The notes below the pieces were generated by a model. That model was not told where the DNA came from. It ran no database searches and was given only the letters and a program-made list of their open reading frames with translations. Below, piece by piece: positions 3,072 through 32,039 of a DNA stretch of 64,000 nucleotides. A program made the translations under genes and the position numbers. Where the stretch lies: NCBI GenBank assembly GCA_947095585.1, contig OX352762.1, positions 13,619,969 to 13,683,968 of the forward strand, given 5' to 3'. How positions within the stretch are numbered: the first letter of the stretch is position 1; the number at the start of each line of letters is the position of its first letter. The DNA comes from Nephrocerus scutellatus. Taxonomy: Eukaryota; Arthropoda; Insecta; Diptera; Pipunculidae.

Positions 3072-3075
3072 ATTA
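3072..3075. repeat. Target-site duplication ATTA, left copy
   Basis: ATTA directly precedes the 5' LTR and ATTA at 12675-12678 directly follows the 3' LTR. A 4-bp duplication is usual for Ty3/gypsy integrases and confirms that both element ends are original. Confidence 0.9.
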
Positions 3076-3172
3076 TGTTGTGACCACACACAACTCCTTA
3101 GACATGTGCTACGCACATTTCATAATATCCTTCCTTTCCCAAACATGTGCTATGCACATTTCCTATTTTTTC

Positions 3173-3202
3173 TAATGTTACATTATCCATAATGTAACAT
3201 TA
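3173..3202 (+). promoter_or_regulatory. Perfect 13-bp inverted repeat in the LTR
   Basis: TAATGTTACATTA (3173-3185) and its exact complement TAATGTAACATTA (3190-3202) flank TCCA. It could form a DNA or RNA hairpin or be a dimeric protein binding site. It is repeated in the 3' LTR at 12209-12238. Confidence 0.8.
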
Positions 3203-3240
3203 CCCATTTTTCCAATAACCCAAATCCATTATCCTAAATC

Positions 3241-3364
3241 CGACGACCCACCGCGGCGTCTACAATTCCTATTATTCTAAATCCGACGACCCACCGCGGC
3301 GTCTTCAATCTATCCTTTTTTTCCCAAATCCTAAATCGGATACCGACGACCCACCGCGGCGTCT
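3241..3364 (+). repeat. Three copies of a 21-bp GC-rich LTR motif
   Basis: The core GACGACCCACCGCGGCGTC, preceded by C and followed by T, occurs identically at 3241-3261, 3284-3304 and 3344-3364 in an otherwise AT-rich LTR. Spacings are 43 and 60 bp. Each core has GACG/CGTC ends and a central CCGCGG palindrome. Repeated perfect motifs in U3 suggest binding sites for a host factor (inference). The 3' LTR holds the same three. Confidence 0.75.
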
Positions 3365-3440
3365 ACATTTTCTATTGTCAATTGCATTCTCGCATTCGCT
3401 TGTTCGTACAACGACTGCGAGAATGGTGATGCGTAAACAT

Positions 3441-3472
3441 GCAGGTCAACAGAACGGTTCAGTTTGACCTGC
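3441..3472 (+). promoter_or_regulatory. LTR hairpin containing an initiator-like TCAGTT
   Basis: GCAGGTCAA (3441-3449) pairs with TTGACCTGC (3464-3472), and the loop nearly continues the pairing (GAAC with GTTC). TCAGTT at 3459-3464 fits the insect initiator consensus, used by TATA-less gypsy-type promoters. If used, transcription would start at about A3461. A competing TATATAA lies at 3584-3590 and an ATTAAA at 3573-3578, so the U3/R border is not settled. Confidence 0.45.
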
Positions 3473-3640
3473 ACTAAAAAATCAAGTCAAAGGCATGGAG
3501 GAAGAAATGGAACGATGGATGAGGCAGTCAATTTCAAACATCCGATTAGGCAAGTTGCCTAGCGGTCAGATCATTAAACACTTTATATAAACTAATCCAT
3601 CTGTGTTTTATTTTTCGATATATTACCACGACCCAACATT

Positions 3641-3659
3641 TGGTGGCAGCGGTGGGATT
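3641..3659 (+). other. Primer binding site, tRNA-Leu type
   Basis: TGGTGGCAGCGGTGGGATT begins two bases after the LTR. It is complementary to a tRNA 3' end finishing in TCCCACCGCTGCCA plus CCA, the usual terminus of a metazoan leucine tRNA. This primes minus-strand DNA synthesis. The tRNA assignment is from general knowledge of tRNA-Leu ends. Directly downstream, GGGATTACTAGG (3654-3665) can pair with CCTAGTATCCC (3677-3687), a hairpin overlapping the site. Confidence 0.75.
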
Positions 3660-4751: not shown

Positions 4752-5729
4752 ATGACTACAAGTCGTTTTAACCCCTCACACGCCATCAAGCTAATTCCTG
4801 AGTTTGATGGATTAGCCAAAAACTTAGATCGATTCATTCAACTAGTTGACCTGCAGTCAAAAAAAGCGATTGACGATGCAGACAAATTAGAATTAGTTGA
4901 CATAGTGAAGTCAAAGTTAACTGGCAGAGCCTACAATGTTGTAATAAAATACAACGATTATAACGGATGGCCAGAACTTAAAGACGCACTAGTAAAAATT
5001 TTTAGAAAATGTCGATCGGTTCAGGTGATTCAGACAGAAATGTTTCAATTTAAGCAAGGCTACAGGGAAACAGTTGCTTCATACGCGGAAAGAGCCAATG
5101 CGTTGTGCGATGAATTAAACAACGCAAACGCAAACACTGAGGATGATTCATCCAATAAAGCAATCCGTTCGCTAAACAGCGCAATGATGCTGAATAGTTT
5201 TTGCAATGGTTTAAATCCACAAATAAAACTTCTTGTTAAAAGTGCACGATGTAAAGAGTTCGACGAAGCAGTCGAAATAGCGATGGAAGAAGAAAAACTT
5301 CTTGCATCCACAAGTAATCGGTACCAAAACCAAAATAACATGTACTGTAAACACTGCAAAACGAAAACTCACAATACCAGTGAATGCCGCACAATCAGAA
5401 ATTATAATTTCAGCCCCGGTGACGTTAGGTTTTTAAATAACACAAACCACAGACCAAATATACAAACCACGCAACCTTTTGTAAATAGGCCTACTCTAAA
5501 CTACACTCAACCATTAACAAATAGGTCTGGTGTAGATACAATCCGCAGTGACATAATTTGTAAGTACTGTAGAAACCAAGGTCACTCTATAGAACAATGC
5601 CGAAAAAGAGTTTTTAATAACAATAGGAACTCCGGTAACGAAAATAATTATTCGAATCAGGGAAACTCTCAGCGACCTGGCCCGACAAGCACTCGGAGTC
5701 AGGTAAAAGACATCAAACCTTGTGCGTAA
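4752..5729 (+). CDS. gag: Gag polyprotein with two CCHC zinc knuckles
   Basis: Encodes 325 residues from the first in-frame ATG. The frame is open upstream to 4659 without an ATG, and a TAA at 4656 blocks further extension. Gag forms the particle core and binds genomic RNA. The N-terminal half has the capsid-like run seen in gypsy-group Gags (IPEFDGLAKNLDRFI, then KSKLTGRAYNVV, then ETVASYAERANAL). Two CX2CX4HX4C knuckles start at residues 199 (CKHCKTKTHNTSEC) and 270 (CKYCRNQGHSIEQC), forming a nucleocapsid. As I recall, Drosophila errantivirus Gags mostly lack such knuckles. The tail is Asn-, Ser- and Gln-rich. The stop (5727-5729) sits exactly at the start of the hexamer repeat, and pol overlaps in the -1 frame. 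Confidence 0.92.
   Translation: MTTSRFNPSHAIKLIPEFDGLAKNLDRFIQLVDLQSKKAIDDADKLELVDIVKSKLTGRAYNVVIKYNDYNGWPELKDALVKIFRKCRSVQVIQTEMFQFKQGYRETVASYAERANALCDELNNANANTEDDSSNKAIRSLNSAMMLNSFCNGLNPQIKLLVKSARCKEFDEAVEIAMEEEKLLASTSNRYQNQNNMYCKHCKTKTHNTSECRTIRNYNFSPGDVRFLNNTNHRPNIQTTQPFVNRPTLNYTQPLTNRSGVDTIRSDIICKYCRNQGHSIEQCRKRVFNNNRNSGNENNYSNQGNSQRPGPTSTRSQVKDIKPCA
5660..5704 (+). promoter_or_regulatory. Predicted -1 ribosomal frameshift site
   Basis: In the gag frame the bases read G GGA AAC (5660-5666), which fits the canonical X XXY YYZ slippery pattern and equals a heptamer known from other viral frameshift sites. The pol frame is open from 5648 and gag stops at 5727, so the site lies inside the 82-nt overlap. 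After an 8-nt spacer a hairpin can form: 5675-5680 with 5699-5704 (one G-U pair), a small internal loop, then 5682-5685 with 5693-5696 around a 7-nt loop. Spacer and direction are as expected for -1 frameshifting. Confidence 0.8.
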
Positions 5730-8700
5730 ATCAAAATCAAAATCAAAATCAAAATCAAAATCAAAATCAAAATCAAAATCAAAATCAAAATCAAAATCAA
5801 AATCAAAATCAATATCAAAATCAAAATCAAAATCAAAATCAAAATCAAAATCAAAATCAAAATCAAAATCAAAATCAAAATCAAAATCAAAATCAAAATC
5901 AAAATCAAAATCAAAATCAAAATCAAAATCAAAATCAAAATCAAAATCAAAATCAAAATCAAAATCAAAATCAAAATCAAAATCAAAATCAAAATCAAAA
6001 TCAAAATCAAAATCAAAATCAAAATCAAAATCAAAATCAAAATCAAAATCAAAATCAAAATCAAAATCAAAATCAAAATCAAAATCAAAATCAAAATCAA
6101 AATCAAAATCAAAATCAAAATCAAAATCAAAATCAAAATCAAAATCAAAATCAAAATCAAAATCAAAATCAAAATCAAAATCAAAATCAAAATCAAAATC
6201 AAAATCAAAATCAAAATCAAAATCAAAATCAAAATCAAAATCAAAATCAAAATCAAAATCAAAATCAAAATCAAAATCAAAATCAAAATCAAAATCAAAA
6301 TCAAAATCAAAATCAAAATCAAAATCAAAATCGAAAAACGAATTCTCAAAATCAAATTCAAATCGAGCTGTCTCAAAAATATAAATCCGATAGTTTAAAT
6401 CGAACTATTCCACATGCAAAGTCTGAGAAAGTTCCTGGCCATAGAATGCCTAACAGAGACTCAAATCCGGAAAAAGTCCGAAAGCAAACAATAAAACAAA
6501 ATATTCTGCTAAATGAACACCACCATCAAAATCGAAGCCAAAGCCAAATCCGAAGGCTACATCAATTTCTAACCAGAAGTCTAGATACTGAATCAAGTTC
6601 AGCTAAACAAATAGCCAATATCTCATCTATAAACAGAGCATCTACTTTTAAAAGCGAGATAAAAATAAAGTCTCAGGAATCAAAGGCTAAATCTAATATT
6701 ATGCTGCTCGATACGGGGGCAAGCCTTAGTTTAATAAAACTCGGAACATTAAAACTAAATGCCGAGGTAAACTTAAAAAATGTTATTGAACTGACAGGTA
6801 TAGGCAAAACGTCTACGTCAACGCTAGGTACAATACTACTAAACATCGAAATTACACCAGGTCAACATCTCAAACATCCTTTTCACATAGTACCACAAAA
6901 CTTCCCTATTACGCAAGATGGAATCATAGGTGAAGATTTTTTTAGAAAATTTAATGCGATAGTGGATTACAATGACAATATATTTGTATACCACTACAAA
7001 AACAGACAATTTACAGTAGACTTCAGCAACGAATGGAAGACCTTAACAATTCCAGCTAGAACTGAAAAGTGGGTAAAATATGGACCAGTAAAAGAGAAAA
7101 TGGAACAAATATATTTTTCTCAGGAAATAGCTCCACGCGTGTATTCGGCATCAACGATAACAGCACCCAAAGACGGTTACGTATTCATATCCATTTTAAA
7201 TACCAACAACGAAGATGTTAGTATAAAAAACTTAAGCCTTAAATCTGAAAACATGGACCATTACACAGTGTATAACCTAAACTCGATATCAACCGACCAA
7301 GTAGTCGAAGAAAGATTAGAAAAACTTAAAACAGAATTAAATCTTATTCACTTAAATCTAGAAGAAAAGCAATCCATAGAGGAAATCTGCAGAAATTTTA
7401 ATCACTTATTCTTTATTGAAGGCGACAAATTAAGTACCACATCAGGAATAAAGCATTCCATTAAGACAGAAAACACTGTTCCTGCAAACATACGCCCATA
7501 TCGCCTAGCAGAAATCCACAAACAGGAGATAAGAAAACAAGTTAATAAAATGCTTCAAGATGACGTAATTAGACCCAGTACTAGTCCGTGGAATGCGCCA
7601 CTTCTGGTAGTCCCCAAAAAAGGAGATCAAAAATGGAGAGTCGTAATAGACTACCGAAAATTAAATGAGGCTACAATTCCAGACGCATACCCAATCCCCA
7701 ATATCGAAGACATTCTTGGGCAACTTGGAGACTCCAAGTACTTTACTACGCTAGATCTGGTGGATGGTTTCCACCAAATCGAAATTACTGAAGAGGATAA
7801 AGAAAAAACAGCGTTTAGTACTACCAACGGTCATTTCGAGTTCAACAGAATGCCGTTTGGTTTACGAAATGCTCCGCCAACATTCCAGAGACTTATGAAC
7901 GTTGTTCTCTCTGGATTGCAAGGTTTTATGTGTTTAGTATATCTTGACGACATTGTGATTTACGGGAAAAATTTGCAAGATCACAACAAGAAGCTTATTG
8001 AAGTTTTTAAAGCTCTAGACAAATTCAATCTAAAAATCAAATTATCTAAATGCAAATTCCTTCAAACAGAAGTTATGTATTTAGGACACGTCATTACAGC
8101 AGACGGTGTTAAACCAGATCCCGATAAGATTGCAGCGATTAATAATATCGAAATTCCTAAAACCCAAAAACAAATAAAATCATTTCTAGGTCTGTCCGGG
8201 TATTACCGAAAATTTATTAAAAATTATTCACAAATTGCAAATCCGCTGAATAAACTTCTTCGTAAAGACGTACCTTTTAAGTGGGACGCTTTTTGTGACG
8301 AATCCTTTAGAAAACTAAAGAAGTCTATAGTTCAACCACCTATACTCATTTACCCAAATTTTGCAAAAACTTTTTATATCACTTCCGACGCTAGCAACGA
8401 AGCTATAGGCGCGGTATTATCCCAGCGAGATTCAAACGATAATGATCTACCAATAGCGTTTGCCAGTAGAATACTAAACAAGGCCGAAAAAAACTATTCT
8501 ACTATCGAGAAGGAAGCTCTTGCAGTAGTCTGGGCAGTCACACACTTTAGACCATACGTTTTCGGACGCCACTTTGAAGTCATTACCGACCATAAGCCAC
8601 TGGTATGGATGTTCAACCTGAAGGATCCTTCTTCGAGAATAATGCGCTGGCGCATAAAACTAGAGGAGTATGACTTCACGGTCTCGCATAAAGCGGGACA

Positions 8701-9883
8701 TCTAAATACGAATGCGGATGCTTTGTCGCGTTTAAATGTACCAGAAATTAATGTGGTAACCCGTAGTTGTAGCAAGATGACGCCAGGCGAACCTGAGCAG
8801 GACAATCATGTTACAGAAATCACAGACCCAGTGAAAATAAAGCAAATACTGTTTGAATTTCACGACACACCCTTAGGAGGTCATCAAGGAGTTAAACGCA
8901 CACTAAAGCGTATCAGAAAGGCGTACAAATGGAAAAATATGTATGTAGACATAAAGAAATACATCATGTCTTGTGAACTATGCCAGAAGAATAAAGTATA
9001 TACACGCAACAAAATCCCTATGGTCATCACTACAACAGCGAAAGTTCCATTCGAAAGAATAGCTCTTGATATAGTGGGACCACTGCCAATTACTGAAAAC
9101 AATAACAAATATATACTTACATTTCAGGATGATTTAACGAAATTCGTCCAAGCAATAGCTATACCCAACCAAGAAGCCAGAACGGTGGCTGAAGCACTGA
9201 TAAAGAAAATAGTTTGCACCTTTGGAATACCACAAACAATACTTACGGATCAAGGAACGAATTTCACAAGTGAATTATTCAAAAATATTTGCAAAACACT
9301 AAAGATTCATAAAATACAAACAAGCCCATACCATCCTCAGTCAAATGGCTCACTCGAAAGATCGCATAGAACTTTAGGCGACTATCTAAGAAATTATGCA
9401 AGTAAAGATCAAGCAAATTGGGATCAGTATATGGATTATGCGATATTTTGCTATAATACCACCTCACATTCAAGCACAAATTACAGCCCATTTGAAGCCC
9501 TATACGGATTCGAAGCTCCAATTCCCTCAACTCTTAACAGAAGCGTACAGCCTACATACAACTACGATGATTATGTCGCTGAGATAAAAGAAAAAATGCA
9601 AACCGGCTATGAAATAATTCGTAATAACCAAATAAAAGCGAAAGAAAAGTCAAAAACCTATTACGATCAAAACTGCAAAGAAACTAACTTTAACGTAGGA
9701 GACAAAGTTCTACTAGAAATAAAAAATAGGGTTAACAAAAAACTTACCCCCATCTTCGAAGGACCCTACGAAATCGTAGAAATTCTATCCCCAGAGAATT
9801 CTAGAATTAAAATTGGTAGGAAGGAAAAAGTCATACACAATAATTTAATTAAACCATACACACAAGCGCACACAAATACATAA
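5666..9883 (+). CDS. pol: Pol: protease, reverse transcriptase, RNase H, integrase
   Basis: About 1405 codons read after the -1 frameshift, giving a Gag-Pol of about 1710 residues. An (Asn-Gln)n tract is encoded at 5729-6331. The aspartic protease motif DTGA begins at nt 6710. RT follows with LDLVDGFHQ and the YLDD catalytic box at nt 7940. RNase H has DAS at nt 8387 and TDHKPL near 8585. The integrase zinc domain is HX6HX29CX2C (nt 8861, 8882, 8972, 8981). The DDE core is D9068, D9248 and E9356, with exactly 35 residues between the last two. A GPY module lies at nt 9761, with no chromodomain. These enzymes mature the particle, copy RNA to DNA and integrate it. No internal stop or missing catalytic residue is seen. 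The stop lies 9 nt before the env ATG, in the same frame. Confidence 0.95.
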   Translation, partial: LSATWPDKHSESGKRHQTLCVNQNQNQNQNQNQNQNQNQNQNQNQNQNQYQNQNQNQNQNQNQNQNQNQNQNQNQNQNQNQNQNQNQNQNQNQNQNQNQNQNQNQNQNQNQNQNQNQNQNQNQNQNQNQNQNQNQNQNQNQNQNQNQNQNQNQNQNQNQNQNQNQNQNQNQNQNQNQNQNQNQNQNQNQNQNQNQNQNQNQNQNQNQNQNQNQNQNQNQNQNRKTNSQNQIQIELSQKYKSDSLNRTIPHAKSEKVPGHRMPNRDSNPEKVRKQTIKQNILLNEHHHQNRSQSQIRRLHQFLTRSLDTESSSAKQIANISSINRASTFKSEIKIKSQESKAKSNIMLLDTGASLSLIKLGTLKLNAEVNLKNVIELTGIGKTSTSTLGTILLNIEITPGQHLKHPFHIVPQNFPITQDGIIGEDFFRKFNAIVDYNDNIFVYHYKNRQFTVDFSNEWKTLTIPARTEKWVKYGPVKEKMEQIYFSQEIAPRVYSASTITAPKDGYVFISILNTNNEDVSIKNLSLKSENMDHYTVYNLNSISTDQVVEERLEKLKTELNLIHLNLEEKQSIEEICRNFNHLFFIEGDKLSTTSGIKHSIKTENTVPANIRPYRLAEIHKQEIRKQVNKMLQDDVIRPSTSPWNAPLLVVPKKGDQKWRVVIDYRKLNEATIPDAYPIPNIEDILGQLGDSKYFTTLDLVDGFHQIEITEEDKEKTAFSTTNGHFEFNRMPFGLRNAPPTFQRLMNVVLSGLQGFMCLVYLDDIVIYGKNLQDHNKKLIEVFKALDKFNLKIKLSKCKFLQTEVMYLGHVITADGVKPDPDKIAAINNIEIPKTQKQIKSFLGLSGYYRKFIKNYSQIANPLNKLLRKDVPFKWDAFCDESFRKLKKSIVQPPILIYPNFAKTFYITSDASNEAIGAVLSQRDSNDNDLPIAFASRILNKAEKNYSTIEKEALAVVWAVTHFRPYVFGRHFEVITDHKPLVWMFNLKDPSSRIMRWRIKLEEYDFTVSHKAGHLNTNADALSRLNVPEINVVTRSCSKMTPGEPEQDNHVTEITDPVKIKQILFEFHDTPLGGHQGVKRTLKRIRKAYKWKNMYVDIKKYIMSCELCQKNKVYTRNKIPMVITTTAKVPFERIALDIVGPLPITENNNKYILTFQDDLTKFVQAIAIPNQEARTVAEALIKKIVCTFGIPQTILTDQGTNFTSELFKNICKTLKIHKIQTSPYHPQSNGSLERSHRTLGDYLRNYASKDQANWDQYMDYAIFCYNTTSHSSTNYSPFEALYGFEAPIPSTLNRSVQPTYNYDDYVAEIKEKMQTGYEIIRNNQIKAKEKSKTYYDQNCKETNFNVGDKVLLEIKNRVNKKLTPIFEGPYEIVEILSPENSRIKIGRKEKVIHNNLIKPYTQAHTNT
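5729..6331 (+). repeat. Hexanucleotide repeat (AATCAA)n, about 100 units, inside pol
   Basis: About 603 bp of tandem AATCAA, with one substituted base giving TAT at 5813-5815 and otherwise uninterrupted. In the pol frame each unit encodes Asn-Gln, giving 201 residues with a single Tyr. The two other plus-strand frames are also stop-free (Ser-Lys and Ile-Lys). Unit gain or loss keeps the frame. Degenerate CAAAAT-like remnants continue to about 6560, suggesting earlier expansions that decayed. It starts at the gag stop codon, so it lies between the frameshift site and protease. Near-perfect purity points to recent slippage expansion; an assembly artefact in copy number cannot be excluded. Confidence 0.95.
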
Positions 9884-9892
9884 ACACTTAAC

Positions 9893-11695
9893 ATGACACA
9901 CACAAAATACCAAAATATTAAAACACGAATTTTCTGTGTTTTCAATTTCAGTTACTTAATCCTTGTTTGCGCACTAAGTGCGGCTGCAGCGCAGCTACAT
10001 CAACAACTACCACTAAACACTACAGGTGTTTATTTGGAACCCATAGGCGTACTCGAAAAATCCTTCACAAAATGGACATTCCTATTCTATTTTAATAATT
10101 CAATAACAAATACCAATGCCAAAACCTTAAAGAAAAACATTAACACGCTCTCGGATCTATGCGAGAATACGACAAAAGAGTATCCTATAGGCCGCTGTAA
10201 AATGACCCTACAAATGCTGAAACACTCTCTTAACGAGGTACAGCAAAATAATAGGATGCTGGATGGTATCCTATTGGGGACAAGACTTACTAAAAGAAGT
10301 ACGACAATTACAAACGGAGGTTTATTTAACGGTATAGGTTATATCCAGAAATTCCTTTTCGGAACAATGGACTCTCAAGACGCTGTAAAGATAGAAAACG
10401 CATTACAAACCCTCTCGGAAAACCAAAATAGCCTCTACCACATGACAAAAGAACAATTGACTATAATATCAAACGTTTTTGATGCACTTAATGACACGAC
10501 ACGTAACGTAAATAATAACTTTAATTTAATAACCAAAGAAATTAAAGAAAATTCAGCTAAGCTGGTAAATCTCACGAACTTTGAAAAAATACTTCACAGT
10601 TTTGACGAAATGTCATACCTTATATCCATATGCGCTTCCCAAATTTTGGCAAAACAAGCAGAATTACTTGACATTTTGCAAGAGGCAAAATTAGGAAGAT
10701 TAGACAGCAGATTTTTAAATTCAGACATTTTTATTGCTACGTTAAACCAGATACAGGCCGAACTCCCGCACAACGTAAGGTTTCCACAGAAAATTTCCAG
10801 GTTAAATCTACCTATAATCAATTCACTAGCAACAACGACACCCATTTATGTAAATGGAAATTTTATGATTCAGGTCAGCATACCGATGGTTAACGAAGAA
10901 TTTAATCTATTTAGAATTACCCCTCTCCCCACAAAATATCTAGAGCACACATATCGATACGTCTCAACTGGTAGCGAACTCGTTGCCGTTAACGAGAACT
11001 ACAGGAGATACATATTTTTGAGCATTAATGATTTGGAAAAATGTATCACAAGCGAACCAGAACATTTCGTGTGCCAACAAAATTTCGTTATACATAATTA
11101 TGACATGAATAATTGCATAATACAGCTAATATCAGGAAACCCAAATCCACAGATTTGTGAATATCGAGTATTCCAACTCAAACACGAGTTATGGTTCACG
11201 TTGAAGAACAAAAACTCATGGCTATATGTTATGCCAGAACCAAAAAACGTACGAATCATATGTGGCGATACTCCACACACAATAAAATTATCAGACAGCG
11301 GAATCCTTAAAATAAAGCCATACTGCAAGGCAGTAACGAACGAAATTTACTTGCAGGCGTCAAATGACATTTACAACAAGGTCCCTATTCTCTACCATTT
11401 CCAGGCCATACCCGTAATTGAAAAAATCGATATCCCCAGTAACCTATCCCAAATCTCATCCCACATAATACATGTTGAAAAGTTAAATTTGGATAAATTC
11501 AGTATTAACGTAAAAGATTTAGTAAGAAAAGATACATCATTTATAACAATAAAACATGAAACTTTATATATTTCGACCTCTACCCTCATTGCCATATGTC
11601 TAATTTGCATATTAATACATGTAATAAAGAAATACTTTAAAATAAAAGTCTCGGTGAACAAAGAAGCAGGAGAAATTGTAGCAGAAAATCCATAA
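9893..11695 (+). CDS. env: Env: F-type fusion glycoprotein
   Basis: Encodes 600 residues. It resembles baculovirus F-like envelope proteins, class I fusion glycoproteins used by insect errantiviruses for membrane fusion. Seen in sequence: a hydrophobic signal segment at about residues 20-33, a furin-type site RLTKR at 131-135, directly followed by a fusion-peptide-like glycine- and phenylalanine-rich segment (about 142-165, including LFGTMDS), a helical region rich in Asn and Leu (about 165-220), several N-glycosylation sequons, and a C-terminal membrane anchor at about 558-578 with a short basic tail. The first ATG (9893) follows the pol stop by 9 nt. A splice acceptor-like site inside the signal coding region (9951) suggests a spliced mRNA with its own upstream start. 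The frame is unbroken. Confidence 0.9.
   Translation: MTHTKYQNIKTRIFCVFNFSYLILVCALSAAAAQLHQQLPLNTTGVYLEPIGVLEKSFTKWTFLFYFNNSITNTNAKTLKKNINTLSDLCENTTKEYPIGRCKMTLQMLKHSLNEVQQNNRMLDGILLGTRLTKRSTTITNGGLFNGIGYIQKFLFGTMDSQDAVKIENALQTLSENQNSLYHMTKEQLTIISNVFDALNDTTRNVNNNFNLITKEIKENSAKLVNLTNFEKILHSFDEMSYLISICASQILAKQAELLDILQEAKLGRLDSRFLNSDIFIATLNQIQAELPHNVRFPQKISRLNLPIINSLATTTPIYVNGNFMIQVSIPMVNEEFNLFRITPLPTKYLEHTYRYVSTGSELVAVNENYRRYIFLSINDLEKCITSEPEHFVCQQNFVIHNYDMNNCIIQLISGNPNPQICEYRVFQLKHELWFTLKNKNSWLYVMPEPKNVRIICGDTPHTIKLSDSGILKIKPYCKAVTNEIYLQASNDIYNKVPILYHFQAIPVIEKIDIPSNLSQISSHIIHVEKLNLDKFSINVKDLVRKDTSFITIKHETLYISTSTLIAICLICILIHVIKKYFKIKVSVNKEAGEIVAENP
9931..9951 (+). promoter_or_regulatory. Candidate 3' splice site for the env mRNA
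   Basis: A pyrimidine-rich run ending TTTCAATTTCAG (cleavage after G9951) fits the acceptor consensus. It falls inside the env signal-segment codons. Its downstream exon would enter the env frame at the third base of a codon, matching the phase left by the donor at 4200. Env of gypsy-type elements is known to be made from a spliced RNA. Confidence 0.45.
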
Positions 11696-12098: not shown

Positions 12099-12111
12099 AA
12101 GGGGGGAGGAG
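12099..12111 (+). promoter_or_regulatory. Polypurine tract
   Basis: AAGGGGGGAGGAG, all purines, abuts the 3' LTR. It is the expected primer for plus-strand DNA synthesis and marks the LTR boundary. Confidence 0.93.
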
Positions 12112-12674
12112 TGTTGTGACCACACACAACTCCTTAGACATGTGCTACGCACATTTCATAATATCCTTCCTTTCCCAAACATGTGCTATGCACATTTCCT
12201 ATTTTTTCTAATGTTACATTATCCATAATGTAACATTACCCATTTTTCCAATAACCCAAATCCATTATCCTAAATCCGACGACCCACCGCGGCGTCTACA
12301 ATTCCTATTATTCTAAATCCGACGACCCACCGCGGCGTCTTCAATCTATCCTTTTTTTCCCAAATCCTAAATCGGATACCGACGACCCACCGCGGCGTCT
12401 ACATTTTCTATTGTCAATTGCATTCTCGCATTCGCTTGTTCGTACAACGACTGCGAGAATGGTGATGCGTAAACATGCAGGTCAACAGAACGGTTCAGTT
12501 TGACCTGCACTAAAAAATCAAGTCAAAGGCATGGAGGAAGAAATGGAACGATGGATGAGGCAGTCAATTTCAAACATCCGATTAGGCAAGTTGCCTAGCG
12601 GTCAGATCATTAAACACTTTATATAAACTAATCCATCTGTGTTTTATTTTTCGATATATTACCACGACCCAACA
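12112..12674 (+). repeat. 3' LTR (563 bp)
   Basis: Same sequence and length as the 5' LTR, with TGTTG and CAACA ends, followed by ATTA. Identity of the two LTRs implies too little time since insertion for substitutions to accumulate, or gene conversion between them. Confidence 0.96.
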
Positions 12675-12678
12675 ATTA

Positions 12679-13185: not shown

Positions 13186-14690
13186 TCAATTGAGTACTCT
13201 TAAGACCGTACTCAAAACTCTTCCAAAATTCTCTGAAGATCCCCTCAAGACCACCTAAAGAACCCCTCAATATCCCACTAAAAGTCCTCACAAAACCTCC
13301 TCTGGACTCCCCTAAAGACTACTTAATGACTACCTCAAGATCACCCCAAGACCACGTTACTTCCCCCATTAATACTCCCTCAAGACCCCCTCAAACACCC
13401 TTAAGATTCCCTTAAGACCCCATCAAAAGATTCTCAAGACCACCTAAAGACTCCCTCAAAACCCGAATAAATATCTTCATAAAACCTCATCGGGACCTTC
13501 AGGACTCCCTCAAGATCACTAAAAGTCCCCGCTAATACCACGTTACTACCTCCACCAATACTCCCTCAAGACCCCCTCAAAACACTCTCAAGACCACCTA
13601 AAAACACCCTTAAGGCTCCACTCATAACCCTCTTAAAATCCCCTCAAGACCACCTCAAGACCCCCTCAAAACCTTCTTATGATCTCCTTAAGTATCCACT
13701 CATGACCCTCTTAAAATCCCCTCAAGACCACCTCAAGACCCCCTCAAAACCTTCTTATGATCTCCTTAAGTATCCACTCATGTTCCTCTTAAAATCCCCT
13801 CAAGACCACCTAAACACTCCCTCAAGACCCGACGAAATATCCTCACAAAACTCCCTCGAAAACCCCTCAAGACAACTTAAAGACTCCCTCAAGACCCCCT
13901 TAAGACTCAGCTCACGACCCTCTCAGAATCCCCTCAAGCCTTCCTCAAGACCTGACTTCTAAGAACCCTTCAAGACCCACCTCAAGATTCCCTTGAGACC
14001 CCAACAAAACCCTCACCAAGACCCTCTTAAACCACCATTGAGACCACCTGAAGACTCCCGTAAACCGCCCTCAAGACCCATCTTAAGACTCCCTCAATAC
14101 CCTCTGAAGATCCACTCAGAACTCCATCAAGACCCCTCTCCAAAACCCTCTCAAGACTACCTCCAGACTACGTTACGAACCCCTTCAGGAACCCACTCAA
14201 GACCCTTTCAAACTCTTCTCAAACCCGCACAAAACCCCCCAAAGACCATCTAAAGACTCCTCTCAAACCGCCCCCAAGACCACCCTCAAGAGCATAAAAG
14301 AACCCCCTTAAGACCCCGTCAAGACCACCCTTAATACGACCTCAAGTAACCCCTTTAATACCCCCTTAACATCATCCCAAGACGCCCTTAAAACATCCCT
14401 TAAAGCCCATCAACATCCCACTCAAAACCCTCTTTAAACCCCATCAAGACTCCCTTTAAACCCACCTGATGGCTCCATCATGAATCACGTGAATACCACC
14501 AAAATACCCTCCAAAAAGTCCTACCCCAAAAATGAGTGCGAGACTTATTAACAGATTTGTAATGAAAAAAACGCGACAGACATATAAGAACCACCTTAAG
14601 ATCACCTCAAGACCGCCTCAAGATCCCCTGACCACCAAAATACTCCCTTAAAGACGCGCCTCATAAAAGTCTTCCACCAAAATTCATACG
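13186..14690. repeat. Degenerate C/A-rich short-repeat tract (about 1.5 kb)
   Basis: The plus strand is dominated by loose variants of CCTCAAGACC, such as CCTTAAGACC, CCACCTAAAGAC and CCCTCAAAACC, every 10 to 20 bases, with G scarce. The complement is therefore G- and T-rich. Units vary in length and sequence, so this is an old, decayed simple repeat or minisatellite. Long frames inside it (13702-13962, 13993-14253) encode low-complexity Pro/Lys/Ser/Leu text and are by-products. Confidence 0.85.
13619..13813 (+). repeat. 78-bp tandem duplication inside the C/A-rich tract
   Basis: Units at 13619-13696 and 13697-13774 differ at about one base near their start, and a third partial copy begins at 13775 with a few differences and fades after about 39 bp. 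Each begins CACTCAT and includes CTTCTTATGATCTCC. The near identity against a diverged background shows recent local duplication. Confidence 0.85.
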
Positions 14691-19180: not shown

Positions 19181-20303
19181 TCCATCGTTTAGTGAGAGAT
19201 GTTTTTTGAAAGAATGGAAAATTGGAATAATGAGCCTCATAGTTGAAGATTCCTTTATTAAAACTTATAAAGCCAAGAAAATGGCCAAACTATTTCCTTT
19301 GATTGTGCGAGTGAGGACTTCCCATCCTAATGGACGTAAAGTTTTCAATGCAACCGCCAATATGTGTGTGGGTTCCAGGTATTCCGGCTGAATTTCCCCT
19401 GTCATTTAAAGAACTTACCAAGGACTTCACAAACAAATACATTTAGTGATACATTTTATCCATCGTATAGTGGGAGTTTTTTTTTGAAAAAATGGAACGT
19501 TGGAAAAATGAGCGTCATAATTGAAGATCCTTTTATTAAAACTTATATCGACAAGAAATTGGGCAAACTATTTCCTTTGATTGTGCGAGTGAGGACTTCC
19601 CATCCTAATGGACGTAATGTTTTCAATGCAACCGCCAATATGTGTGTGGGTTCCAGGTATTCCGGCTGACTCTACCTTGTCATTTAATAAACTAACTAGG
19701 ACTTCACAAAATACATTTAGTGATGCATATTATCCATCGTTTAGTGGGAGTTTTTTTTTGAAAAAATGGAAAGTTGGAAAAATGAGCGTCATAATTGAAG
19801 ATCCTTTTATTAAAACTTATATCGACAAGAAATTGGGCAAACTATTTCCTTTGATTGTGCGAGTGAGGACTTCCTATCCTAATGGACGTAATGTTTTCAA
19901 TGCAACCGCCAATATGTGTGTGGGTTCCAGGTATTCCGGCTGACTCTACCTTGTCATTTAATAAACTAACTAGGACTTCACAAAATACATTTAGTGATGC
20001 ATATTATCCATCGTTTAGTGGGAGTTTTTTTTTTTGAAAAAATGGAATGTTGGAAAAATGAGCGTCATAATTGAAGATCCCTTTATTAAAATGTGTAAGC
20101 CAAGAGAATATGCAAACTATTTCCTTTGATTTTGCGAGTGAGGACTTCCCAACCTAATGGACGTAAAGTTTTCAATGCAACCGCCAATATGTGTGTGGGT
20201 TCCAGGTATTCCGGCTGAATTTCCCCTGTCATTTAAAGAACTTACCAAGGACTTCACAAACAAATACATTTAGTAATACATTTTATCCATCGTTTAGTGA
20301 GAG
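19181..20303 (+). repeat. Tandem array, four units of about 276 bp
   Basis: TCCATCGTTTAGTGAGAG marks both edges (19181 and 20286), and the anchor ATGAGC(C/G)TCAT recurs at 19230, 19508, 19782 and 20058, giving periods of 278, 274 and 276 bp. Units 2 and 3 are almost identical, and units 1 and 4 are more diverged. In units 1-3 one frame stays open for about 60 codons and ends at the same TGA, with shared text such as LFPLIVRVRTSHPNGR and FNATANMCVGSRYSG. Unit 4 has small indels. No family recognised; probably a small satellite or minisatellite. Confidence 0.9.
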
Positions 20304-29564: not shown

Positions 29565-31505
29565 TTACCCCTTCTTCTTTCTTTCTTTATGTCCTGTATC
29601 CCCTTATGGGTCCTAGGGCCTCTACTACGCCTACGCGCCATCGCGTGCGGTTCCTGGCAATGAGCTTCAGCTCTCTCCAACTCTTCCCCAATTGCCGTGC
29701 CTCCTCCTCAACTATTCTGCGCCATGTATTTCTCGGACGACCCGTTCTTCTACCATCCTGAGATAACGGGTTCCATTGCATTGCGTAGTTTGCTATGGAA
29801 CTGTCGCCTTTTCGGAGTGTATGACCAATCCACTGCCACTTCCGTCGTTGGATGGTTGTGCCTATTGGTTCCTGACCCGTTCTCTGGTAAAGATGTTCGT
29901 TTGAGATACGGTTAGGCCAGAAAACCCTTAAGATGTTCCGTAGTCACCTATTTACAAATGTTTGTAATCTTTTTGTGATAGTAGCGGTCACCTTCCAAGT
30001 GCTGCACCCATACAACAGCACAGATTCAACATTTGAGCGGAACAGTCGCAGCTTGGTGTTTAAGCTGATCGCATTGCTTCGCCATATCATGGACATCATT
30101 CCAAACACCGATTTTGCTTTGCCGATTCGGTTGGCAATGTCCTGTTCGGTTCCACCTTCGGTCGAGACAATACTCCCAAGATATTGGAAACTCTCTACTC
30201 TCTCTACCGGCTGTCCAGCAATGTTAACATGAGTAACTGAGTTAGTGCCGAGGTTGATGATTTTGGTTTTGGCAGTATTAATCTTCAAACCCGCAACATT
30301 TGCCTCCCTCTCCACATTTGTTGTCATTTGGTGCAGCTCCATAATTCTATGTGAGAGTAAACAAACGTCGTCAGCGTAATCCAGATGTTTGAGTTGAGAT
30401 GTAAGAGTCCAACGAATTCCTCCGTTTCCAGTAGATAAAGCTGCGCGAAGTACATCGCTAATCACCAACAAAAAAAGTATCGGCGATAGAATGCAACCTT
30501 GTCGTACCCCACTTAGGATCTCGAATTCCTCTGACAGCTTTCCTCTATGCAGCACATGACATTTAGAGCCATCATATGTTGCTTTAATAATAGCTATTAG
30601 TTTATCGGGTATACCTCTCCTGCGCAAGGCGAGCCAGATAAACTGTCTGTTGACACTGTCAAACGCCTTCTCAAAATCGATGAACAGCAGGTGCAGTGGT
30701 GACCGGAATTCAACGCACTGTTCAATAATGATCCACAGGGTGTTTATGTGGTCTACACAGGAGGATCCAGTGCGGAAACCTGCTTGTTCGGCATCGAGTG
30801 TATCTTCCAGATGTTCCTTAATACGTTCAAGTACTACTTTGGCTATTACTTTTGCAACTGCAGGGAGAACGCAAATGCCTCTCCAGTTTTCGCACTCCAT
30901 AAGACTACCTTTTTTAGGGAGCTTGACAATCATTCCCTTCTTCCACTCTTCGGGGAAACTTTCTACCTCCCAAGCTCTCTCTACAAGAGGATATAAAAGC
31001 TCTGCTGATGTCGTTGGAGCTACACGCAGAAGCTCTGCGGGTATACCATCTAGTCCTACCGACTTGTTGTTCTGTAGTGCGTTAATCGCGGTAGCGATCT
31101 CGTCTTTACTGGGAGTTGAGGTGCGAATTCGGGAAATTGTTACTTCCAGCATTTCCGCTTGATTTAGGTGCATATCGTTAGCAAATACACGGTTAAGGAC
31201 CGTAGAGAAATGCTCCTTCCATCGCTTGAGCTGATCCTCATCTGAAACGAGTACGGTACCATCTAGGCCTTTCACCGGATGTTGGCTAGAGCGGTGACCA
31301 CCTGTCAGCTCTTTGGTGATTCTGTAAACGGTTCTGCTATCGCACCGGCTCGCTGCTTCCTCTGCTTCTGAGGCCAGGTTGTTAATATAGTTACGCTTGT
31401 CACGTCTTACACTACGCTGCACTTCTCTCATTTTTCTTCGATACATGGACTCTAGCTCGCTCCTCGCTACTGCTGGGATATCTGATAACTTTACCCCTGC
31501 AATTT
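29565..31505 (-). mobile_element. Family A LINE, best-preserved copy; RT frame with one stop
   Basis: Minus strand. A single frame from about 31505 to 29587 encodes linker and complete RT, broken only by one TGA at about 29944-29946, after which it continues in the same frame to RVGVVEALGPIRGYRT. Blocks in order: KREWKEHFS-like linker (LKRWKEHFSTVLNR), NKSVGLDGIPAELLRV, LPKKGSLMECENWRGI, DAEQAGFRTGSSCVDHINTL, FIDFEKAFDSVNRQFIWLAL, SGVRQGCILSP, LDYADDVCLL (catalytic YADD intact), FQYLGSIVSTEGGTEQDI, SVLLYGCSTWKV, RRKWQWIGHTLRKGD, GRPRNTWRRIVEEEA. Where the stop lies, the 32.7-kb copy has Tyr. The endonuclease is missing: the copy is 5'-truncated into an AT microsatellite. Probably a fairly recent, dead-on-arrival insertion. 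Confidence 0.85.
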
Positions 31506-32039
31506 TATATATATTATAATATATATACATAATACATATATAATAAATAAATTCAGAAAAATGCGAGATAGTGAAAAACTAAAAAACAGTCTTTATATAA
31601 TTCTACCGTATTGAGTTTAGATTAATTCCAGTTTAACCTTATTTAGCACCATGTGCAAACCTCACAAATTCTAAATTCGAAGAATTAGAGAGGTATGCTT
31701 TCGGTTTTACAAAGCAAACCCTACCGCGGAAAACCGAATTAATTTTAAACGATTCAGAAATGATTGCTATACCCATCTTCGGCCAGTCACATTCATCTAC
31801 GACCAAAAATGTAGTCAAAAATAACTATAATATCCCAAAAGTAGTACAAATTTTTTGGTCATTCGTGAAGAGAATCCAAAATACAGCCTCTTTGTCGATT
31901 CAAACGCTCATTTTGTAATGGCATTCCAGTTGTCAGCTCTATATGCAAGGCCAATCTGTTGTGCACGCTTCCAGATTGTGCATTGCTGCCGCCTGCACCT
32001 AAAAGTATGAACACTTAATAGGACAGATATTCATTCGTA
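31506..32039. other. No recognisable gene
   Basis: AT repeats at 31506-31550, then unclassified DNA with no long frame. Confidence 0.5.

Follow-up and report, generated by a model that had tools for sequence, protein, structure and literature searches.

A 64,000-nucleotide stretch of the genome of the fly Nephrocerus scutellatus (Diptera, Pipunculidae; contig OX352762.1, positions 13,619,969 to 13,683,968 of the forward strand), referred to here as the window, carries a retroelement whose pol frame runs through an array of 100 tandem hexamers encoding an Asn-Gln (NQ) tract. By its sequence organization, the element is an env-bearing long terminal repeat (LTR) retroelement of the Ty3/gypsy type, an insect endogenous retrovirus (ERV). 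The tract is a common feature of at least 62 young, near-identical copies, among which its length varies over a four-fold range. We consider it probable that the tract is a tolerated, hypermutable spacer of Gag-Pol, changed chiefly during reverse transcription in a recently amplified insect ERV. The parts of the element are as follows (window coordinates).

3072..3075, plus strand: target site duplication ATTA, 5′ copy, matching 12675-12678
3076..3638, plus strand: 5′ LTR, TGTT...AACA, 563 bp, identical to the 3′ LTR
3641..3659, plus strand: putative primer-binding-site-like sequence TGGTGGCAGCGGTGGGATT, 2 bp past the 5′ LTR (sequence only)
4752..5729, plus strand: gag open reading frame (ORF), 325 amino acids, stop TAA at 5727-5729 (Pfam Retrotrans_gag PF03732, E 3.8e-6)
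5648..9883, plus strand: pol open frame, −1 relative to gag, with tract, linker, protease, reverse transcriptase (RT), RNase H, and integrase (ORF and Pfam)
5660..5666, plus strand: slippery heptamer G_GGA_AAC in gag phase, the sole X XXY YYZ site in 5640-5724
5675..5704, plus strand: 11-bp stem-loop, 8 nt past the heptamer, predicted by folding as a frameshift stimulator
5729..6328, plus strand: tract of 100 hexamers, read directly from the sequence
6329..6364, plus strand: degenerate 3′ tail of the array (AATCGA AAAACG AATTCT CAAAAT CAAATT CAAATC)
6365..6661, plus strand: linker, from the tract to the protease (sequence)
6662..6955, plus strand: aspartic protease domain (RVP, Pfam)
7610..8095, plus strand: reverse transcriptase (RVT_1, Pfam)
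8360..9337, plus strand: RNase H, integrase zinc domain, and integrase core (Pfam)
9893..11695, plus strand: env ORF, Baculo_F (F-type fusion protein, Pfam PF12259, E 5.6e-35)
12099..12111, plus strand: polypurine tract AAGGGGGGAGGAG adjoining the 3′ LTR
12112..12674, plus strand: 3′ LTR, 563 bp, identical to the 5′ LTR
12675..12678, plus strand: target site duplication ATTA, 3′ copy, matching 3072-3075

Read in the pol frame, positions 5729 to 6328 consist of 14 AATCAA units, one TATCAA unit, and 85 further AATCAA units (99 of one kind and 1 of the other), which encode (NQ)14-YQ-(NQ)85. Unit 1 starts on the final base of the gag stop TAA, and the last unit is followed by a single AATCGA and then by the degenerate tail to about 6364. 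Tandem Repeats Finder placed the array at 5728-6362 with 97% matches, in keeping with the near-perfect microsatellite in coding sequence described in a preliminary description of the window. That account had given about 100 in-frame hexamers at 5729..6331; the count is 100, and the end lies 3 bases too far. Its Asn-Gln tract holds throughout the pol frame save for one Tyr-Gln unit, and its placement exactly between the gag stop and the protease is right at the first boundary, since the array begins at the stop, and wrong at the second, where 111 non-tract residues (N+Q = 20%) precede the protease match. By composition, the tract has the long N/Q-rich make-up of prion-like domains. Antisense ORFs extend over the array because the AATCAA unit is stop-free in two of the three antisense frames.

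The gag/pol overlap starts at 5648, with pol in the −1 frame, and holds the sequence elements of a programmed −1 frameshift, namely, an in-phase heptamer and a 3′ structure within 5 to 9 nt of it. G_GGA_AAC is reported to rank among the most shift-prone heptamers, and spacers of 5 to 9 nt to have been used in many frameshift studies (PMC5009743). A 52-nt piece containing the stem-loop folds at −16.1 kcal/mol (z −3.25), and none of 200 shuffled sequences was as stable; for a 65-nt piece, the z value was −1.90, and 9 of 200 shuffles reached its stability. All 10 older copies compared retain the heptamer without change, and nine of them keep the full stem, the copy L127 being without the outermost pair, and the stem region was matched at 90 sites in the genome with up to 3 mismatches. 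Ribosomes are thus predicted to slip −1 at GGGAAAC ahead of the gag stop. Since the signal precedes this stop, (NQ)n is predicted in Gag-Pol only and not in Gag, which fits the earlier placing of the tract in Gag-Pol.

To the extent inspected, the element appears otherwise intact, as had been stated: it has open frames for gag, pol, and env and identical LTRs bordered by an ATTA duplication. An LTR pair, a short target duplication, a primer-site-like sequence, and a polypurine tract are all found, as in Metaviridae, and the Pfam domains follow the order protease-RT-RNase H-integrase of that family; the gag product contains two CX2CX4HX4C zinc knuckles, read by eye. Among the Pol relatives listed (120 of 4077 found), the nearest is 52% identical. 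The element is tentatively placed with the errantiviruses, or insect ERVs, by its baculovirus F-type env and its insect host. A nuclear COX1 copy in the assembly is most similar to those of schizophoran flies (best 94%, Homoneura picta; 93% for tephritids, chloropids, and others). It resembles errantiviruses (Metaviridae) in its LTRs, its gag, its −1-frame pol and domain order, as well as in env and host. Drosophila errantiviruses, as far as is known, differ from it with respect to the (NQ)n in the transframe region, the two Gag zinc knuckles, the TG...CA LTR ends, and the varied 4-bp target duplications.

The genome assembly was then searched (613 Mb, 9 contigs), and every array length given here comes from this one assembly. 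It yielded 102 gag-end candidates; each of the 40 that were scored matches the window without a difference over 298 bp. Sites with the 5′ junction of the array numbered 84 (up to 2 mismatches) and those with the 3′ junction 75; the first 30 bases of the degenerate tail occur exactly at 62. Junctions were paired by coordinates into 70 pairs, leaving 14 5′ and 5 3′ junctions unpaired. Both junctions are exact in 62 pairs, which contain 29 to 123 units (median, 63; mean, 65.7; standard deviation, 22.0) and fall into 44 distinct lengths, every one a whole number of hexamers (multiples of 6 bp). Seven of the other eight pairs contain 2, 3, 3, 3, 3, 34, and 47 units, and the remaining one, at C2:32596891, was dropped as a false pairing of distant junctions. 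An exact pair necessarily holds one unit or more; copies with no units would still be matched by the mismatch-tolerant search, and none occurred among the junction pairs. We read 49 young copies directly: 48 of those with exact junctions, and L040, whose 3′ junction carries one mismatch; the lengths of the other 14 of the 62 were taken from junction distance alone. Pol is open across the fetched piece in 48 of the 49, the exception being L144 with a one-base gap, and only 13 of their 3188 units are variants. Five copies read (L010, L016, L021, L022, and L142) lack 15 bp of the linker, in frame. Whether other copies in this genome carry the repeat had been raised in the preliminary description, where a tract confined to this one copy was to count against it; the repeat is family-wide, and a tract unique to the window copy is rejected by the 62 exact-junction copies.

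To what extent these copies have aged since insertion can be read from their LTRs. In 39 copies, with the window left out, the LTR pairs differ at 3 of 21,825 sites, and 36 pairs are identical; insertions with such near-zero divergence are therefore young. An identical 4-bp target duplication borders 37 of the 39; the 5′ LTR match of L030 starts at base 80, and L044 is without a matching duplication. Because the duplications differ from copy to copy and the nine copies compared share no common host flank, the copies represent separate insertions. We then compared about 2.4 kb of sequence flanking the array in 31 copies, counting substitutions and not indels. Forty copy pairs show zero substitutions, and their tracts differ by 29 units on average, being equal in only 1 pair. 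These data indicated that change in the array greatly outpaces change in the adjoining sequence and in the remainder of the element. We infer that the length changed mostly between insertions rather than after them.

The variant unit serves as a marker of this process. TATCAA lies near the 5′ end of the array in 9 young copies, which have a mean of 100 units (80 to 123), and is absent from 40, which have a mean of 57 (29 to 93; Mann-Whitney P of 1e-5). The simplest reading of this pattern is a long, marked progenitor whose daughters lost marker-bearing blocks, and the two markers of L028 among its 119 units suggest that a block was duplicated. Lengths were also examined against 5′ untranslated region (UTR) type in 31 copies, in which groups of 18, 6, and 3 were tested and four lone copies left out. 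The six copies of one type have 32 to 45 units versus 47 to 123 in the main type (permutation P of 0.004). Such clustering by 5′UTR type indicates that tract length is partly inherited between rounds. The 5′UTR types themselves differ by blocks (e.g., L009, L018, L026, L027, L033, and L037 versus the window) despite near-identical gag ends, tract flanks, and LTRs, differences that may reflect recombination of co-packaged RNAs.

In some older copies (L147, L157, L158, and L160), the array has been fused by deletion to other sequence, A-rich or matching. In L147, the linker has been lost between matching CAAAATCGAA stretches, and in the other three the gag end has been lost up to the array. Retroviral RTs are reported to delete direct repeats often and precisely (PMC3187697). 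The marker and deletion traces are consistent with template switching of this kind, without constituting proof. A proposal that the 15-bp linker deletion arose between AAAGT repeats was rejected, its ends not being flanked by a direct repeat.

Older copies further include local duplicates of unequal length, all of them diverged by about 0.6% or more. L131 and L133 have 69 versus 53 units (16 apart) and are about 99% alike, and L157 and L158 have 41 to 42 versus 20 to 21 (about 21 apart); L128 and L129, identical over 1288 bp, both have 3 units. The first pair lies in a cluster of older copies at C2:65.853-65.863 Mb (L130 to L133) with four gag-tract junctions in about 7 kb, the likeness of L131 to L133 extending over 1.9 kb. 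L157 and L158 (C1:43.00 Mb, 7.5 kb apart, about 41 and about 20 units) have the array fused to the gag zinc-knuckle region at an A run, and their frameshift signal is gone.

A tree was built from 846 bp of 3′ flank for 26 rows, with units counted by a looser rule. As drawn, the deepest rows are L127 (63 units), L138 (99), and L153 (6), followed by L140 (46), L154 (2), the group L128/L139/L146/L152 (2 to 3), and the young clade (29 to 122). If the forks hold, long and short states alternate, and the array has changed class at least twice; lengths across copies and tree bear out the repeated expansion and decay surmised at the outset. Stop codons interrupt the Pol piece of the short-tract copies included in the tree. 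The short-tract group has a support of 83/86, which suggests that its members inherited a short tract; a long one would then not have been needed at that time. Alternatively, they may have contracted after insertion. Considering both the 29-to-123-unit spread and an older group that left several copies with 2 to 3 units, we reasoned that no exact length is required and probably no long tract either; a long tract is not clearly essential. Pol itself is constrained, given the low ratios of nonsynonymous (dN) to synonymous (dS) divergence between the window and L127: dN 0.038 and dS 0.116 in the linker, the first 309 bases past the tract (ratio of about 0.33), and 0.024 and 0.110 in the rest, the protease-RT part (ratio of 0.22). 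L127 was rejected as an intact deep-branch element, since its upstream part is not gag, and it counts for the tract and Pol piece only.

In the scheme that we favor, a −1 slip at GGGAAAC would place (NQ)n exclusively in the Gag-Pol product, as a polar, presumably disordered spacer leading from the Gag part to the linker and protease. During reverse transcription, nascent DNA would re-anneal to a different unit of the same or a co-packaged RNA and the length would change. The element would tolerate such changes, as the six-base unit keeps the frame and the segment lies outside the recognized domains, and tract length would pass partly from one round to the next. Several observations weigh against this scheme. 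The tree is rooted at its midpoint and 17 of its 22 inner branches are open or weakly supported. TATCAA is found in two 5′UTR types, so the history of the marker is no simple tree, and the 15-bp linker deletion, having no direct repeat at its ends, gives no pointer to template switching. The array deletions in old copies could be chromosomal; so may be some length change, judging from the unequal tracts of local duplicates that are about 99% alike. Finally, 0 of the 62 exact copies falls below 29 units; short tracts may thus be selected against in the present lineage.

That most of the length variation arose by replication slippage on the chromosome after insertion seems unlikely to us. Long pure arrays are unstable and the local duplicates do differ in length, yet young insertions, at about 1.4e-4 LTR mismatches per site, lie 29 units apart on average, whereas the duplicates, at 0.6% divergence or more, are only 16 and about 21 units apart, and L128 and L129 do not differ at all; the clustering by 5′UTR type speaks against it as well. 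It is highly improbable that the assembler collapsed or expanded the arrays. Although the lengths rest on one assembly and simple repeats are error-prone, whole hexamers separate the junctions in 62 of 62 copies, arrays of up to 738 bp are small for an assembly that resolves 613 Mb into 9 contigs, and all 9 marked copies have the TATCAA unit close to the 5′ end.

With regard to function, (NQ)n might be under selection for a prion-like, condensing activity that would concentrate Gag-Pol where assembly takes place, to a degree tuned by its length. The pure N/Q composition, the minimum of 29 units seen in the 62 exact copies even though long arrays can shorten, the long tracts on deeper branches, and the purifying selection on Pol along the long-tract lineage (window versus L127) all agree with this idea, as do the irregular N/Q-rich stretches of some Pol relatives (upstream of the protease motif in three) and the reported need for a prion-like domain of Ty1 Gag in transposition (PMC10372613). 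We nevertheless hold it doubtful: near-identical young insertions spread four-fold in length, an older related group has 2 to 3 units, the segment is predicted in Gag-Pol but not in Gag, and uniform codons show that the repeat is kept uniform at the DNA level. Thus, the role in Gag-Pol packaging or assembly suggested earlier is not supported as stated by lengths of 29 to 123 units in young copies and 2 to 3 in the older group. A further proposal, which we likewise hold doubtful, would make the array a self-mutating “contingency” segment, in which reverse transcription varies a prion-like spacer beside the protease and daughters differing in the strength of Gag-Pol assembly or protease activation come under selection, with a lower limit of about 30 units in the present lineage. 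The array might instead act as RNA or DNA, either as an A-rich unstructured stretch past the frameshift hairpin or as a recombination hot spot, with the peptide as a by-product. It begins 24 nt past the hairpin in the window, and several deletion junctions lie at it, but the short-tract copies L128, L129, and L139 have the same heptamer and hairpin, and we judge such a role improbable.

HIV-1 p6* has, to our knowledge, no repeat array. It is similar to the present segment in lying between the frameshift site and the protease and in Gag-Pol only, and it is proposed to modulate protease activation (PMC4451514). The closest printed cases, as far as the sources describe them, are a domain of Ty1 Gag and a repeat of the Drosophila ERV rover. 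Ty1 Gag likewise brings low-complexity, prion-like composition into a retroelement structural polyprotein, where it is required; that domain is N-terminal in Gag, unlike a pure DNA microsatellite of four-fold length range predicted in Gag-Pol only (PMC10372613). In rover, the copy number of a tandem repeat also varies among variants of one insect ERV, but the unit is 151 bp, in 1 to 4 copies, and belongs to the 5′UTR, an untranslated RNA, in contrast to the coding hexamer array here (PMC12992720). Deletion of direct repeats by RT similarly removes units precisely through homology-guided template switching, as proposed here; it was described for long repeats in vectors, whereas this natural hexamer array seemingly expands too (PMC3187697).

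A literature search, mostly of titles and abstracts and with subscription journals thinly covered, found no retroelement with such a regular tract in Pol. Four of the 120 listed relatives contain a 40-residue stretch that is at least 50% N+Q; it precedes the protease motif in P0028, P0029, and P0093 and follows it in P0064. All four stretches are short and irregular compared with the regular tract here; in P0064, residues 153 to 192 form a low-complexity N/L/Q stretch past the motif. The same 120 show no tandem dipeptide of at least 5 units and no homopolymer of at least 7, with the relevant region often out of view, since the protease motif falls within the first 120 residues in 73 of them and was unfound in 18. 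The (NQ)n Pol proteins for which the preliminary description had suggested a search are accordingly absent from these 120 relatives, many without the region in view. Its statement that no precedent was known holds for a printed regular Pol tract, and is to be qualified by the N/Q-rich stretches of Ty1 Gag (PMC10372613) and of the four Pol relatives. An array search of viral contigs matched 8 contigs with at most 8 tandem units, and none of the viral contigs was confirmed as a relative of the protease/RT piece. A protein search with part of the tract, the linker, and the protease gave 0 of 2595 candidates at E ≤ 0.001 and also missed Pol relatives found by the other search, making it weak evidence of absence.

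At least 62 young, near-identical copies with a built-in length marker provide a natural record of tandem-repeat gain and loss in a retroelement, a subject that one study approached with artificial vectors (PMC3187697). To judge from this record, a retroelement may be able to accommodate about 60 to 250 residues of polar spacer separating Gag from protease. The copies also offer a graded set of natural lengths with which to ask if assembly is affected by N/Q tracts in Gag-Pol; the authors of the Ty1 work have encouraged looking at such prion-like domains in further mobile elements (PMC10372613).

Elsewhere in the window, a degenerate array with an 11-bp unit (CCCTCAAGACC) lies at 13377-14463, shortly past the 3′ end of the element, and at 19181-20303 about four units of 274 bp are repeated in tandem (91% matches). 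An ORF at 29944-31578 on the minus strand resembles, by eye, a non-LTR retrotransposon reverse transcriptase, and shorter similar ORFs occur elsewhere in the window. The assembly also contains nuclear mitochondrial COX1 copies, with 106 matches (contig C9 included) and a dense run at C4:57.05-57.43 Mb; in several full-length nuclear copies, TGA accounts for all or nearly all of the “stops,” a pattern that young mitochondrial DNA would show.

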